DNA of 34,537 nt. Origin: Verrucomicrobiota bacterium. Its GTDB lineage: Bacteria; Verrucomicrobiota; Verrucomicrobiia; Opitutales; Opitutaceae. The notes beneath the pieces were generated by a model, which was not told where the DNA came from, searched no databases, and was given only the letters and a program-made list of their open reading frames with translations. Location of the stretch: assembly GCA_026398135.1 (NCBI GenBank), contig JAPLTN010000041.1, positions 1 to 34,537 of the forward strand. Reading direction: 5' to 3'. A program made the position numbers and the translations under genes. Positions 6,437-26,496 of this stretch are shown here, piece by piece (position 1 is the stretch's first letter; every line of letters begins with the position of its first letter).

Positions 6437-6491
6437 CCGTAACCTCCAACGCAAAGTAACCCAATAGGTTACTTTGCGTTGGAGGTTACGG
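6437..6491. repeat. Perfect 25-bp inverted repeat in a divergent gap
   Basis: Arms at 6437-6461 and 6467-6491 are exact reverse complements around a five-base loop, caata. A second small hairpin, with arms at 6423-6427 and 6433-6437, touches its left end. The pair lies in the 282-base gap (6304-6585) between the divergent TIGR03067 gene and the AsmA-like gene. Neither flank has the T-run of a terminator. Apart from these hairpins I see nothing definite in the gap. Confidence 0.9.
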
Positions 6492-19291: not shown

Positions 19292-20161
19292 ATGATTTAT
19301 CTACTCGGCGGCTCCGGTTACGTCGGCCAGGCGTATCAAGCCCTTCTCACCAGTAAGGGACTATCCTTCAAATCTATTGCCCGCGCTGATCTTGATTATG
19401 CGGATCCTGTGGCACTGACCGCCGCCCTGCGCCACGATAAGGTCACCTTCCTGATCAACGCCGCCGGCTATACCGGCAAACCCAATGTGGATGCCTGCGA
19501 GCTTGATAAAACGAATTGTCTCTTCGGCAACGCCGTCCTCCCTGGACGCATTGCCGTAGCCTGCGCCGCTGCCGGCGTCCCATGGGGCCACGTCTCCTCG
19601 GGTTGCATTTACACTGGAAAACGCCCCGATGGCACCGGTTTTACCGAAGAAGACGCTCCCAATTTCACTTTCCGCCAAAATAATTGTTCCTTCTATTCCG
19701 GCACCAAGGCCCTTGGCGAAGAAATATTGTCCGGTATTTCTAATGTGTACATCTGGCGCTTGCGCATCCCCTACGATCATCGCGAAAGCCCGCGTAATTA
19801 TCTTACCAAGCTGATGCGTTATCAGCGTCTGCTTGAGGCCGAAAACTCCATCTCCCAGCTCCAAGAGTTCGTCGCGTCCACCTTTGCTTGTTGGGAAAAA
19901 CATATCCCTTACGGCATATACAACGTCACCAACCCCGGTTACGTGACCACAAGAGAGGTGGTCGATCTGATTCTAGAAAGTGGCGTGTGTAAAAAAGACT
20001 ATGAGTTCTTCTCCGACGAATCTGAGTTCATGCAAAAGGCCGCCAAGACCCCCCGGAGCAATTGTGTGATGACCTCCGCCAAACTTGCTGCTGCTGGTAT
20101 CACCATGACACCGGTTCGTGAAGCAATTCAGACCGCTCTCCGTAACTGGCAGAAATTATAA
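19292..20161 (+). CDS. Putative bifunctional 3,5-epimerase/4-reductase (NRS/ER-like)
   Basis: This 289-residue SDR protein probably converts dTDP-4-keto-6-deoxyglucose to dTDP-rhamnose. It begins with the NAD(P)-binding motif GGSGYVG at 6-12 and has YxxxK at Y135/K139. It resembles the plant nucleotide-rhamnose synthase/epimerase-reductase and its giant-virus relative more than ordinary RmlD. Matching blocks are NAAGYTGKPNVDACE, SGCIY, FTEEDAPNF, SFYSGTKALGEE, RLRIPYDHRESPRNYLTKLMRY and YNVTNPG. The residues I recall as needed for epimerisation in the plant enzyme, a Cys and a Lys, have equivalents at C105 and K173. No rmlC lies in the window, which fits a bifunctional enzyme. A plain dTDP-4-dehydrorhamnose reductase is the alternative. 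The stop codon lies in the first base triplet of a 104-base repeat. Confidence 0.85.
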   Translation: MIYLLGGSGYVGQAYQALLTSKGLSFKSIARADLDYADPVALTAALRHDKVTFLINAAGYTGKPNVDACELDKTNCLFGNAVLPGRIAVACAAAGVPWGHVSSGCIYTGKRPDGTGFTEEDAPNFTFRQNNCSFYSGTKALGEEILSGISNVYIWRLRIPYDHRESPRNYLTKLMRYQRLLEAENSISQLQEFVASTFACWEKHIPYGIYNVTNPGYVTTREVVDLILESGVCKKDYEFFSDESEFMQKAAKTPRSNCVMTSAKLAAAGITMTPVREAIQTALRNWQKL

Positions 20162-20262
20162 ACCGCGAAGGACACTAAGCCTCGCTAAGCCAATCCAAAT
20201 TCCAATAAACCAGTTTCCGAACTTCGCGCCCCTTCGCGTACTTCGCGTTTAAAAAATTCCGA
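20159..20262. repeat. 104-base repeat, copy 1 (upstream of GxxExxY gene)
   Basis: The element starts with the stop codon of the preceding gene and ends ten bases before the GxxExxY start. Hand alignment with the copy at 20662-20765 gives about 92 identities in 105 columns, with two single-base gaps. Each copy has a left arm with AACCGCGAAG-type words and a right arm with repeated CTTCGCG words, so it can fold into an imperfect hairpin. Confidence 0.88.
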
Positions 20263-20272
20263 TTCCGTCCCA

Positions 20273-20680
20273 ATGTCCGAATCAATTCTATACAAAAACG
20301 AGGTCTTCCAGATCATCGGCGCCTGCATGGCGGTTCATACCGAAAAAGGTAACGGCTTTGTGGAACCGGTCTATCAGGACTGTATGGAGATTGAACTCGC
20401 GCATCTCGGCATCCCCTTCGATCCACAGCGCAATTTCCCTGTTTTTCATCGAGACATTCAACTAAAACACACTTACACACCCGACCTTCTGTGTTTCGAC
20501 AAAATAATCGTTGAGTTTAAAGCGGCCAAAACCCTCACGGACGAACACCGAGCCCAAGTCATCAACTACCTCAAAGTCACCGGCCTTGAACTCGGATTGC
20601 TTGTTAATTTTGGTTCGCATGGTCGCCTCGAATGGGAACGCATAGTAAAAACCAAAGAGATTAACCGCGAAGAACGCTAA
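20273..20680 (+). CDS. GxxExxY family protein
   Basis: The family is small, uncharacterised and predicted to have a PD-(D/E)XK nuclease-like fold. The 135-residue product shows the name-giving motif G28-FVE-PVY34 in [16 protein letters not shown]. The putative catalytic pattern is P70-D71 in [16 protein letters not shown] with E81 and K83. The ending [22 protein letters not shown] is also typical. The last residues, INREER, and the stop are encoded by the left arm of the downstream 104-base repeat. The start follows the upstream copy by ten bases. The gene therefore looks like an insert between rmlD-like and rmlB genes rather than a pathway member. Whether it is active or mobile is not known. 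Confidence 0.88.
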
Positions 20681-20765
20681 GCCTCGCGAAGCCAATCCCA
20701 ATACCAACAAACCAGTTTCCGAACCTTCGCGTAACTTCGCGTCCTTCGCGGTTAAAAAATTCCGA
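20662..20765. repeat. 104-base repeat, copy 2 (overlaps end of GxxExxY gene)
   Basis: This copy begins inside the last seven codons of the GxxExxY gene and ends ten bases before the rmlB start at 20776. It aligns with the copy at 20159-20262 over its full length in the same orientation. Recombination between the two copies would remove the GxxExxY gene cleanly and leave one repeat between the two sugar genes. Confidence 0.88.
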
Positions 20766-20775
20766 CCTAATTCTC

Positions 20776-21828
20776 ATGAAAATTCTAGTCACCGGCGGTG
20801 CCGGCTTCATCGGCTCCAACTTAGTTCGTCTTTTGGTCACTTCACACAGCCACGAAGTGTTAAATGTGGACTTGCTGACCTATGCAGGTAACAAGCATTC
20901 TTTAGCGGATATTCAAACGCACCCCTCCTACCGTTTCGCCCAAGCTGATATCTGCGATTCCTCGGTCATGCAGAAACTTTTCACCGAGTTTCAACCCGAC
21001 TGGGTTATGCACCTCGCCGCTGAGAGTCATGTGGACCGCTCGATCGACGGTCCCGGTGCCTTCATCCAGACCAATATAACGGGAACCTTTACGCTCCTTC
21101 AAGCCGCCCGGGCCCACTATGAAAAATTAAACGGTGCCGCCCGTGACCGATTCCGTTTCCTTCACGTTTCCACCGATGAGGTTTACGGCACTCTCGGTGC
21201 CACTGGCCTCTTCACCGAAGAGACCCCCTACGATCCCCACTCGCCCTATTCCGCATCCAAAGCCGCGAGTGACCACCTCGCCCGTGCTTGGGCCGACACG
21301 TACGGTCTACCCGTATTGGTTACCAACTGCTCAAATAATTACGGGCCCTATCAGTTTCCCGAAAAACTCATCCCTGTCGTTATCCTCAAAGCTCTACGCG
21401 GCGACCCGATTCCTGTTTACGGCAAAGGCGAAAACATCCGCGACTGGCTCTACGTAGGCGATCACGCCGAAGCCTTGCACACCGTCATCGCTAAAGGCCG
21501 CATCGGTCAGACCTATAACATTGGAGGCAACAACGAGCGCCAAAATATCGACCTCGTGCGCCTACTCTGCGGCCTACTTGACGAGCTTCGCCCCCGCACC
21601 GACGGCAAACCCTACTCCGATCAAATTACTTTCGTAAAAGACCGCCCCGGCCACGACCTCCGTTACGCGATTGATGCCACCAAGATCAAAACCGAACTAG
21701 GTTGGACACCAAAACAAGATCACACGTCTGGTTTCCGGAAAACCGTACAATGGTATCTGGATAACGAAGCATGGACCACGAATATCTTGAATGGCTCCTA
21801 CAAACTAGAACGCCTCGGAAAAGCTTAA
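20776..21828 (+). CDS. rmlB: dTDP-glucose 4,6-dehydratase
   Basis: The enzyme converts dTDP-glucose to dTDP-4-keto-6-deoxyglucose, the branch point for rhamnose and 4-amino sugars. The 350-residue product has NAD-binding GGAGFIG at 7-13. The catalytic TDE is at 133-135 in VSTDEVYG, and YSASK gives Y158 and K162. [18 protein letters not shown] and [17 protein letters not shown] are all typical RmlB sequences. Its ATG at 20776 lies ten bases beyond a 104-base repeat. Its stop is embedded in the left arm of another, diverged inverted repeat. The product can feed both the epimerase/reductase at 19292 and the aminotransferase at 23917. Confidence 0.98.
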
Positions 21829-21927
21829 CCACAAAGCACACGAAGTTTCACGAAGACTAATAAAACCTAAAAATCCGAATACAAATCCGACCGAAACTTC
21901 GTGCACCTTAGTGCTCTTCGTAGTTAA
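21825..21927. repeat. Diverged long inverted repeat between rmlB and wzt
   Basis: Arms of 31 bases at 21825-21855 and 21897-21927 pair at about 24 of 31 positions around a 41-base loop. The word pattern (AACCACAAAG, CACGAAG, CTTCGTG) matches the layout of the 104-base repeats at 20159 and 20662, with CACG in place of CGCG. It fills the whole gap from the rmlB stop to the base before the wzt ATG. Confidence 0.78.
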
Positions 21928-21928
21928 A

Positions 21929-23335
21929 ATGTCAGACGACATCGCCATATCCGTTCAAAACGTCAGCAAAGCCTACCGAATCTGGCGGGACCCTTCTGCG
22001 CGTCTGAAAGCTCCGCTCTGGGATGTCATCGGCGGCATTATCCCCGCTACACTTCAACCTGAATTTGTTCGCGATCGCCTCAACCACAAAGCCACTTCAA
22101 AATACTATAGTGATTTCTACGCATTAAGAGACGTCAGCATAGAGGTGCGCAAAGGCGAGACGGTCGCCATCGTTGGTCGAAATGGCTCGGGCAAGAGTAC
22201 TTTGTTACAGATTATAGCAGGTACCCTGTCCCCTACCGAAGGTGCCGTAAAAATCTACGGGCGCGTCGCTGCGATGTTGGAGCTCGGAAGCAGCTTCAAC
22301 CCCGATTTTACCGGTCGGGAAAACGTATACTTGACGGCTGCGCTTCTTGGGAAATCACGATCGGAAATCGACGAACGATTCGACGAAATCGCCGCCTTCG
22401 CCGATATCGGCAGCTTTATAGAGCAACCTACCAAAACCTATTCCAGTGGCATGACGATGAGGCTTGCTTTCGCTGTGAACGCACTCAGCCATCCGGAAAT
22501 TATAATTGTTGACGAAGCCCTTGCGGTCGGCGACATGAACTTTCAGGCAAAATGCATGACGGCCTTGAAACGCAGTCAAGACCGGGGCTGCACCATTCTT
22601 TTTGTCAGTCACGACATTGGCTCGGTTAAAAGTCTATGCAAACGAGCCATTTATCTGGAAAAAGGCCGCCTCTTTTCCCACGGCGCAGCTTCGGAAATCG
22701 CCGATCTTTACGTTAGGAGGATGCGAGAGGAATCCAACCCCGACATGGGCTTGCTAGTAACTAGCCAAGCCCATGCCCCGCTCACCACTAAGACATTATC
22801 GAGCACTGTAATCACTCCAGGTGTCATTCACTTCAAAGAATCCCCCGCGTTTGCTCAGAAATACCGCACCACACGCTATGGCAGCGCCAAGGCAACCTTT
22901 ACTGAGGTCGAGCTGCTAGACCTTGATGACAAACCCATCCAAGCGGTTGCTTTTGATCAGGAAGTTAAAATTCGTCTCCATTGTATTGGTCACGCCGACC
23001 TGATTGTCGCCCCTGTTTACTATATTTGCGACGAAAAGAAAATTTCGGTCCTGGGCGCCTACCCGTCGCTCGCCGGGCAAGATTTGCTGGAAATGCACGC
23101 TGGTAAACGCACCACCGTTACCTACACGACCCGCCTTCCCCTCCAAGAAGGAAATTATAGCATTTGCGCCCAACTCACCTCACCAGCAGTCAGGGACGAA
23201 ACCGCTGAGTTTCTTGATGTTATCGACGATGCGGTCGTTTTTCATGTTACCCGCCGCCCCGAATGGAGAATTTGGTCCAAGGTCTATATCTCCAACCAAC
23301 TGAACGTGGTTACAAGCCATGCGCCATTAAATTAA
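21929..23335 (+). CDS. wzt: Polysaccharide ABC exporter ATPase with C-terminal sugar-binding domain
   Basis: This ATPase pairs with the permease at 17554. The 468-residue protein (ATG at 21929; an in-frame GTG at 21911 lies inside a repeat and is less likely) has Walker A GRNGSGKS at 83-90, signature YSSGM at 171-175, Walker B IIIVDE at 191-196 and the H-loop His228. The region of about 310-468 is a beta-sandwich like the Wzt C-terminal domain. In other systems that domain recognises the finished, end-capped polysaccharide before export (established for E. coli O8/O9a). Here it begins with RYGSAKATFTEVELLD and ends with SNQLNVVT. Its presence suggests that the exported glycan has a specific non-reducing-end mark, though the mark is not identifiable. 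Confidence 0.95.
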   Translation: MSDDIAISVQNVSKAYRIWRDPSARLKAPLWDVIGGIIPATLQPEFVRDRLNHKATSKYYSDFYALRDVSIEVRKGETVAIVGRNGSGKSTLLQIIAGTLSPTEGAVKIYGRVAAMLELGSSFNPDFTGRENVYLTAALLGKSRSEIDERFDEIAAFADIGSFIEQPTKTYSSGMTMRLAFAVNALSHPEIIIVDEALAVGDMNFQAKCMTALKRSQDRGCTILFVSHDIGSVKSLCKRAIYLEKGRLFSHGAASEIADLYVRRMREESNPDMGLLVTSQAHAPLTTKTLSSTVITPGVIHFKESPAFAQKYRTTRYGSAKATFTEVELLDLDDKPIQAVAFDQEVKIRLHCIGHADLIVAPVYYICDEKKISVLGAYPSLAGQDLLEMHAGKRTTVTYTTRLPLQEGNYSICAQLTSPAVRDETAEFLDVIDDAVVFHVTRRPEWRIWSKVYISNQLNVVTSHAPLN

Positions 23336-25056: not shown

Positions 25057-26496
25057 ATGCCCAAAGTCTCAGTTATTCTCACCTCGTTTAATCACGCCGC
25101 ATACATCAAGGCGGCGATCGAGAGCGTCCTGGCCCAAACTTTTTCTGACTTTGAGCTGATTATTGGAGACGACCATTCCTCAGACGATTCCTGGGAGATC
25201 ATTAATGCGATCCAGGATCCTCGCATCCGTTCATTTAGATGCGAGCACAATACCGGAAATGTGATCAACGTCGCCCTGCGTGACGGATGGATTTCTGGGG
25301 AATACGTGGCCGTTCACCACTCCGACGATCTTTGGGAGCCGGAGAAACTTACACTACAGGTCGCATTTTTGGATCAACATCCGGACATGGCTGCAGTTTT
25401 CACCCGTGTTCGACTGATTGATGAGCACAATAAAATATCGGACGAAATTGCTAGTGAAGAAGGCTCTACTTTACGCGCATACCAAGGCATATTCGATCAG
25501 GAAAACCGCACACGCACTGCCTGGCTAAAACGATTTTTTTATCAAGGGAATTGCCTTTGCCATCCTAGTGTAATGTTGCGAAGAAGCGTTTATGAACATC
25601 TAGGTCATTACAATACCTACTACCGCCAACTTCCAGATTTTGATTATTGGGTCAGATTATGCATGACCTATAAGATACATGTTTTGCAAGAACGGTTGGT
25701 TCGATACAGAGTATTATCAAATAATAAAAACACCAGTGCACAGACCCTTGAAAATGGTCGCAGAGTAAATTGCGAAATGACAAGAGTTCTGCTGCATTAT
25801 TGTAAAATAAAAGATCTTCACGAAATCTTCCCTGAGTCTCAGATTTACACAGAGCAATCCGACGTTGTTCCATCCTACGTCCTTGCACGTATAGCCTTAT
25901 CTACAAAAAATCGAATTCTACAACATTATGGTCTGCAACTTCTCAATAGTGTTCTAATCGATTCGGTTCTTATCGAAAAAACGCGCCTGCTCCACCCGTC
26001 GAGTTTAGCTGACATAGGCAGCATTATGGGCTCTATCAGTTTATTCGATGACAATGAAGAACTACTATTACAGCAAGGTAGATTATTGAATGAATTGAGA
26101 AGCAGCGTGATATTACGTGATGCTTTGATTACTGAATTAAGAAGCAGCGTAACATCAAATGATGCATTAATTACTGAATTAAGAAGCAGCGTAACATCAA
26201 ATGATGCATTAATTACTGAATTAAGAACACGAATTAATAGTAATCAGGACATGCTTTTTAGCTTCCAAAAGGAGATCACTATAAAGGCAGCGTTGATTCT
26301 GGAACTTAATGACGAGATTAATAATTACAAGGAAACGGTTCTGGATTATAAAAAACAACTTGCGGAAAGCAATTCGCGCTGTTTCGAACTAGAAAAGCAA
26401 AATGATATTTACTGTGATAAAATATCACGAATTCAAAAATCCATGAGCTGGAAGGTCACAGCACCTTTACGGGCGGTCCGACGTTTTTTTGAATAA
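25057..26496 (+). CDS. Family 2 glycosyltransferase with repeat-built coiled coil
   Basis: The first 240 or so residues of this 479-residue protein are a GT-A glycosyltransferase. The start is VSVILTSFNHAAYIKAAIESV, the nucleotide-binding DDHSSDD is at 38-44, the metal-binding HSDD is at 88-91, and the acceptor-side motif is LPDFDYWVRL. A helical region follows. From residue 346 the sequence is a coiled coil made of 14-residue units, ELRSSVTSNDALIT, each exactly two heptads with Leu, Val, Asn and Ile in the core. Units 2 and 3 are identical at DNA level. The tail ends SMSWKVTAPLRAVRRFFE, a motif common at the ends of such glycan-assembly proteins. The sequence turns AT-rich within the gene. 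Sugar donor and linkage are unknown. Confidence 0.9.
   Translation: MPKVSVILTSFNHAAYIKAAIESVLAQTFSDFELIIGDDHSSDDSWEIINAIQDPRIRSFRCEHNTGNVINVALRDGWISGEYVAVHHSDDLWEPEKLTLQVAFLDQHPDMAAVFTRVRLIDEHNKISDEIASEEGSTLRAYQGIFDQENRTRTAWLKRFFYQGNCLCHPSVMLRRSVYEHLGHYNTYYRQLPDFDYWVRLCMTYKIHVLQERLVRYRVLSNNKNTSAQTLENGRRVNCEMTRVLLHYCKIKDLHEIFPESQIYTEQSDVVPSYVLARIALSTKNRILQHYGLQLLNSVLIDSVLIEKTRLLHPSSLADIGSIMGSISLFDDNEELLLQQGRLLNELRSSVILRDALITELRSSVTSNDALITELRSSVTSNDALITELRTRINSNQDMLFSFQKEITIKAALILELNDEINNYKETVLDYKKQLAESNSRCFELEKQNDIYCDKISRIQKSMSWKVTAPLRAVRRFFE
26092..26217 (+). repeat. 42-base tandem repeat inside a glycosyltransferase gene
   Basis: Three full units lie at 26092-26133, 26134-26175 and 26176-26217, and a degraded fourth starts at 26218. 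Units 2 and 3 are identical over all 42 bases; unit 1 differs at several positions. The unit length is a multiple of three, so changes in copy number keep the frame. Confidence 0.95.

Follow-up and report, generated by a model that had tools for sequence, protein, structure and literature searches.

REPs are thought to be mobilised in trans by TnpA-REP, and STRR repeats are repeats of cyanobacteria. In a REPtron a chromosomal gene is bordered by palindromes whose gene-free copies lie in intergenic DNA; the gene evolves in the manner of a retained host gene, and a given tnpA-REP is mostly single per genome (PMC8266576). A second related arrangement is the intervening sequence (IVS) of Coxiella 23S rRNA, which has a stem of 28 bp that RNase III cuts, with tandem heptamers ahead of an S23p open reading frame (PMC4990558).

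The locus analysed here lies in a 34,537-nucleotide stretch of DNA (the window) and carries a GxxExxY gene. It resembles a REPtron in three respects: palindromes border the gene, although the left copy in the window is degenerate; the cognate palindrome can have many gene-free copies (18 of one arm family in two related genomes, G030 and G092); and the GxxExxY gene, too, evolves in the manner of a retained host gene. It differs in that the enclosed protein belongs to the PD-(D/E)XK group (PF13366) and is not the HUH (Y1) transposase TnpA-REP, that neither GTAG nor CTAC occurs in the two copies beside the gene, that each arm is built from repeats of a unit of about 9 bp, and that several GxxExxY matches per genome are usual (up to 11), whereas tnpA-REP is mostly single. 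No link between GxxExxY genes and palindromes, and nothing related to the arm sequences, was found in the open-licence PMC literature, searched mostly at the level of titles and abstract openings.

There is good support for the cassette and for its being mobile. That the window holds one case of a widespread palindrome-plus-nuclease cassette, REPtron-like but built around a PD-(D/E)XK protein instead of an HUH one, is a reading to which we give roughly even chances.

Architecture of the locus

The features at the junction are as follows.

19292-20161, + strand: RmlD-like host gene, upstream side of the junction
20159-20262, + strand: upstream direct-repeat copy, containing a degenerate palindrome at about 20159-20254 (left arm AAACCGCGAAGGACACTAAG.., right arm ..CTTCGCGTACTTCGCGTTTAA)
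20273-20680, + strand: GxxExxY gene, 135 aa (TIGR04256 / PF13366 PDDEXK_3)
20662-20765, + strand: downstream direct-repeat copy, containing a palindrome at 20661-20755 with arms 84% complementary
20776-21828, + strand: RmlB-like host gene (GDP_Man_Dehyd / Epimerase domains), downstream side of the junction
21825-21930, + strand: third palindrome of the same kind, without a gene (TTAACCACAAAGCACACGAAG...CTTAGTGCTCTTCGTAGTTAA), immediately 3' of rmlB

A preliminary description had proposed that two direct repeats of 104 bases, with about 92 identities in 105 columns, bound the gene as a removable cassette. The two equal-length copies hold: aligned globally, 20159-20262 and 20662-20765 are identical in 92 of 105 columns, and their local score of 144 compares with a shuffle maximum of 26 (n=1000). 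The repeat search returned the pairs 20158-20222/20660-20724 (89%) and 20222-20262/20725-20765 (88%), and picked up part of the third copy (61% over 41 nt). The proposed boundaries are likewise correct. The upstream copy starts in the stop codon of the RmlD-like gene, the left arm of the downstream copy encodes the final codons and stop of the GxxExxY gene, and an ATG lies ten bases past the end of each copy.

The direct repeat is nevertheless not the basic unit that it was taken to be. The repeat unit in the window is a palindrome, TTAACCGCGAAG...CTTCGCGGTTAA, visible within the downstream copy as the inverted repeat 20661-20691/20725-20755, and the window gene sits between two whole palindromes, not inside one. 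Folded as single-stranded DNA, the right copy gives z -7.4 (0 of 200 shuffles as good), the third copy a moderate z -2.5 (2 of 200) and the left copy z -1.2 (31 of 200). Since the left copy barely beats its shuffles, it is regarded as degenerate. A single GTAG lies inside the right end of the third copy, and several relatives have an S23p gene at the position of this copy after rmlB. An Rfam scan of 19900-22100 returned nothing at E up to 1.

Two other repeats occur in the window. A hairpin at 6439-6489 has perfect 23-base arms (GTAACCTCCAACGCAAAGTAACC) and a 5-base loop and is not an array of the unit described below; three 42-base direct repeats at 26082-26227, within the open reading frame 25057-26496, would encode a 14-residue protein repeat.

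The GxxExxY protein

The window protein scores 135.8 bits against each of TIGR04256 and PF13366, above their cut-offs of 35 and 22, and so belongs to the family. Among 63 sequences K83 is invariant, and D71, E81 and Q95 are each present in at least 90%; we take D71, E81-x-K83 and Q95 to occupy the PD-(D/E)XK positions. The structure is predicted confidently (pLDDT 93.6). The best structural match to the model is SSO0001, a Cas4 protein (Z 9.6, rmsd 3.1, 98 residues aligned); other restriction-endonuclease-like folds, among them the Hjc resolvase (Z 6.8), match at Z of 6-8, which may reflect only a common arrangement. No PDB sequence matched the GxxExxY family at E up to 0.1. The model thus predicts a nuclease-like fold, which by itself does not imply activity.

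Of 13 GxxExxY pairs, nine have finite dS (0.93-2.51) and dN/dS of 0.03-0.11; dS is saturated in the other four, and dN spans 0.05-0.30 over all 13. These ratios indicate that the gene is under purifying selection.

Inverted arms around GxxExxY genes

Arms were scored by aligning the 200 bases upstream of a gene with the reverse complement of the 200 bases downstream, with a threshold of 30. In the window's bacterial family, 121 GxxExxY loci were gathered, of which 116 were distinct and 115 had enough flank; 90 of the 115 have inverted arms at or above the threshold and 25 fall below it. A set drawn from many phyla comprised 80 loci, five of which were dropped as too near a contig end; 49 of the remaining 75 reach the threshold and 26 do not. 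Because the loci are the top scorers of each search together with some picked by genome or site, these fractions are not unbiased estimates. Controls to the 75-locus set reached 30 in 4/167 neighbouring open reading frames (the top three being S23p genes, PF05635), in 15/75 flanks compared in direct orientation and in 37/441 cross-locus pairs. GxxExxY genes are thus usually bracketed by mirror-image arrays of their own short motif.

The same survey qualifies the repeat-gene-repeat layout. Direct similarity of the flanks reaches at least 30 in 23/115 family loci and at least 90, indicating long copies as in the window, in six of them, the window included; most loci have one inverted arm pair instead. 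The preliminary description had also asked whether other copies of the repeat neighbour GxxExxY genes; further copies are present in the window's own genome and in relatives, and many GxxExxY genes have such repeats next to them. The own genome has six GxxExxY matches above cut-off, five of them with arms (scores 31 to 57; the exception, on contig C40, scores 15). Each of these loci has its own unit, for example CACGGAG, CGCTAAA or CGCAAAA as read from the sequence.

Beneath this variation in unit sequence between the arms of different loci lies a common form. GxxExxY arms are arrays of the unit C-R-C-N-R-A, one per 8-10 bases. At least two such units occur in the left arm of 78/90 armed family loci and 44/49 armed many-phyla loci, compared with 0/28 armed S23p loci, whose arms use other units. 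As the motif was chosen after the GxxExxY arms had been viewed, how often it occurs in them is only a description; what informs is that S23p arms lack it. Its density is 6.7-6.8 per 100 bases in arms against 0.83 in background, and adjacent units are 8, 9 or 10 bases apart in 382/449 intervals. The units mostly keep one polarity towards the gene; two or more of opposite polarity occur in 4/90 and 5/49 left arms.

S23p loci and pairing in RNA

The 23S rRNA IVS resembles the GxxExxY locus in placing a short gene in an inverted-repeat loop, and its left arm can carry tandem heptamers (PMC4990558). Outside rRNA, S23p genes of the family lie in similar arms: 33 such loci were gathered, two were too short, and 25 of the 31 usable ones have inverted arms of at least 30 (S23p loci L040-L043, L104-L132, L195:303-677, L209:1167-1580 and L209:5943-6305). 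Their units are of the types AGGAGTC, GTTGAGA, TAAGCGG and CCAATGA. The window's own genome has four S23p genes above the family cut-off, in inverted arms of other units scoring 38 to 46. The differences from the IVS are that the window gene encodes GxxExxY and is not an S23p open reading frame, that its site is a protein operon (RmlD-like/RmlB-like) and not the inside of a 23S rRNA gene, and that GxxExxY arm units are of another class with no sign of selection for RNA pairing. Exact 23S rRNA words had no match in a set of collected loci, a weak test of location in rRNA.

As S23p differs from the GxxExxY nuclease and yet has the same architecture, a nuclease is not required for such arms, and this parallel design is the strongest point against the need for one. 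It also invites an explanation at the level of RNA, in which the arms would pair in the transcript, RNase III would cut the stem, and excision from the message would make the cassette tolerable in operons, with the protein as a passenger or an RNA binder. The geometry is that of the Coxiella IVS (PMC4990558), the S23p genes outside rRNA share the architecture, and the window, rml and gatA-gatB cassettes lie between neighbouring genes of one direction. However, pairing of sense RNA predicts that arm mismatches should favour G-U over A-C, and across 111 loci the reverse was found (G-U 78, A-C 139), as in an earlier, overlapping set of 75 loci (79 against 100); the G-U excess that would mark RNA pairing is thus absent. 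One S23p cassette (G092, contig C129) is antisense to its neighbours, and the window's left palindrome folds poorly, albeit as DNA. On this evidence insulation of the message is unlikely to explain the arms.

Dispersal of arms within and across genomes

One arm end, CCTCCTGTRAAAA, occurs 15 times in G030, twice in G069 and 15 times in G092, with no occurrence in the reversed control. Thirty of the 32 ends found were read. Of these, 22 pair up within 140 nt to give 18 gene-free palindromes, ten in G092 and eight in G030, although several pairings are weak; three belong to two GxxExxY cassettes (L354/L356 and L365), which hold sister genes at different sites; and five, including both of G069, are without a partner. 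In G030, eight gene-free ACAGGAGG palindromes appear on reading to be nested, each lying within the loop of a surrounding palindrome of the CACGGATT type (L343, L346, L348, L352, L358, L360/L362, L366 and L368).

In the window's own genome, 28 near-matches to one arm end (at most two mismatches) contrast with none in the reversed control; gene content was checked for part of the 28. Across 100 family genomes, the pattern CTYYGYGNNCTYYGYGGTT occurs in 59/85 with GxxExxY (648 hits) against 2/15 without (2 hits), counts that ignore kinship and include the arms of the genes themselves; more than two hits per GxxExxY gene are found in only 21/85. Two similar genes of G032 (L089 and L284) share sequence that ends a little beyond the right arm; on the left the likeness extends about 70 bases beyond the arm.

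The gene-free short palindromes share their ends with the gene-bearing form (the CCTCCTGTRAAAA family of G030 and G092), as MITEs do with their insertion sequences. The differences are that there is no known transposase and no established target-site duplication, and that unit sequence varies among the arms of different loci. Carriage by plasmids or phages was considered as a means of spread and rejected: a tblastn search with the window protein had matches in just 8 plasmid records out of 72,556 and in no phage record.

Empty, gene-free and exchanged junctions

The rmlD-rmlB junction was surveyed in 30 family loci, the best 30 of those found. It is empty (gap of at most 50 nt) in 21, holds a GxxExxY gene with arms in two (the window and L051, whose open frame breaks about halfway through the domain), a gene-free palindrome in three (L055 and L056 of one genus, and L059), arms around other DNA in one (L068) and another insert in three. 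The last are L065, L066 and L067 of genus g27, where a different insert of about 490 nt contains small open reading frames and has no such arms. The gene is thus not fixed in all relatives, and the empty sites anticipated by the preliminary description exist. The tree sister of the window protein (L314) also lies, on reading, between an RmlD-like end and an RmlB-like start. Further junctions hold GxxExxY (L139), S23p (L133 and L134) or, as read, gene-free palindromes of the S23p kind (L136, L140 and L143).

Sister species of genus g31 differ at four further junctions. The L078 site holds GxxExxY in G030 and is empty in G069; the empty site is clean but too diverged to fix its exact ends, and no target-site duplication is established. 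On reading, the right arm of L078 may supply the GTG start of the downstream gene in G030, where G069 has an overlapping ATGA. The L249 site holds GxxExxY in G030, a gene-free palindrome in G069 and an antisense S23p cassette in G092. Relative to GxxExxY in G030, the L238 site has a gene-free palindrome in G092 and the L251 site gene-free palindromes in both sisters. At the L246 junction, G069 has just a short gap of other sequence.

Exchange of GxxExxY for S23p at one junction would be expected if the palindromes were moved by an unrelated factor encoded elsewhere, with the two genes as alternative cargoes, perhaps useful to the host. Two unrelated protein families do share the design, GxxExxY is under purifying selection, and copy numbers of the two rise together (Spearman 0.57 over 100 genomes, kinship ignored). 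The two families have different classes of arm unit, however, as would be expected if each protein recognised its own arms more than if one mover served both. The cargo explanation is judged unlikely, and the nuclease as mover would be the most economical reading of the motif specificity.

Residence at a junction and coupling of the arms

Of six site groups placed on the protein tree, four require one change and two (gatA-gatB and one more) require two. The cassette therefore often stays long at one junction, and as most site groups form one clade each, the gene-bearing form moves rarely. The proposal of a removable, mobile element is partly supported: the empty sites and further copies agree with it, the long residence less so, and none of the loci was recognised as having arisen by recombination between direct copies. 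The suggested help of the protein in movement is an inference. GxxExxY cassettes recur at the gatA-gatB junction in 20 family loci from many genera (L006, L083, L084 and others); Pfam identifies the neighbours of L006 as an amidase and GatB.

When arm coupling was tested with arms picked by their own match, within-locus similarity was favoured in 151/165 pairs (2 ties). Because this choice of arms biases the test, it was repeated in fixed 90-base windows. With pairs grouped by protein identity as high, middle and low, similarity was 34.4, 38.1 and 34.7 between the two arms of one locus, 31.4, 28.1 and 22.7 between left and right arms of different species, and 55.6, 36.9 and 28.8 between the same arm of orthologues. 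On average, orthologous arms (37.4) resemble each other as much as the two arms of a locus do (36.4), and the comparison is even, within-locus similarity being higher in 149/273 pairs (6 ties) and, on average, for 30/66 loci. It is higher in 5/45 pairs of high protein identity and in 62/86 pairs below 60% identity. Coupling thus rests on the diverged pairs and on the cross-arm decay, and coupled change of the two arms is supported less firmly than the features above. Where the pairing lasts while each arm drifts, it points to renewal or selection.

The orthologous cassettes L237 and L252, beside an SRP54-type GTPase gene, differ in the units of both arms together. Correction of quasi-palindromes by template switching would change both arms together. 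Mutation could in this way account for the arms entirely, slippage producing the tandem units and template switching perfecting the inverted repeats, with the genes as mere neighbours; the units are indeed short and tandem. Against such an origin, arms are rare at neighbouring open reading frames (and the best of those few surround S23p genes), GxxExxY loci of different phyla have the unit motif in common whereas S23p arms lack it, and a single arm family can be found at many places in one genome. An origin by mutation alone is improbable.

A possible mechanism

If the palindrome-plus-nuclease reading is correct, movement could proceed as follows. The small PD-(D/E)XK protein would bind the arrays at both ends, at several sites about one helical turn apart; alternatively, its target may be a hairpin or cruciform formed by the arrays. 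It would then nick or trim DNA at the arrays or hairpin. Through repair or replication, a palindrome that either contains the gene or lacks it would then be copied to a different intergenic junction, and the same process would keep the two arms alike. Gene-free palindromes would be derivatives mobilised in trans, comparable to REPs and TnpA-REP.

A broader proposal is offered tentatively, as one we consider somewhat improbable. Mobile palindromes found across phyla may form a class of their own that has so far escaped recognition, with GxxExxY as the enzyme devoted to it. This minimal PD-(D/E)XK nuclease would read short unit arrays or hairpins and spread them between genes, through a copying mechanism that differs from transposition by HUH, DDE or site-specific recombinase enzymes. 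S23p would then be a parallel system, and the 23S IVS a special case.

Implications

It thus seems that a family of mobile palindromes, widespread but little noticed, has GxxExxY as its protein partner. Both GxxExxY and S23p are widely annotated, and their settings, each in its own inverted arrays, give a testable clue to what the two proteins bind. The cassette offers an origin for intergenic palindromes of the CACGGAG, CGCAGAG and CACGAAG types, and it is relevant to a long-standing problem, the spread of intervening sequences in 23S rRNA.
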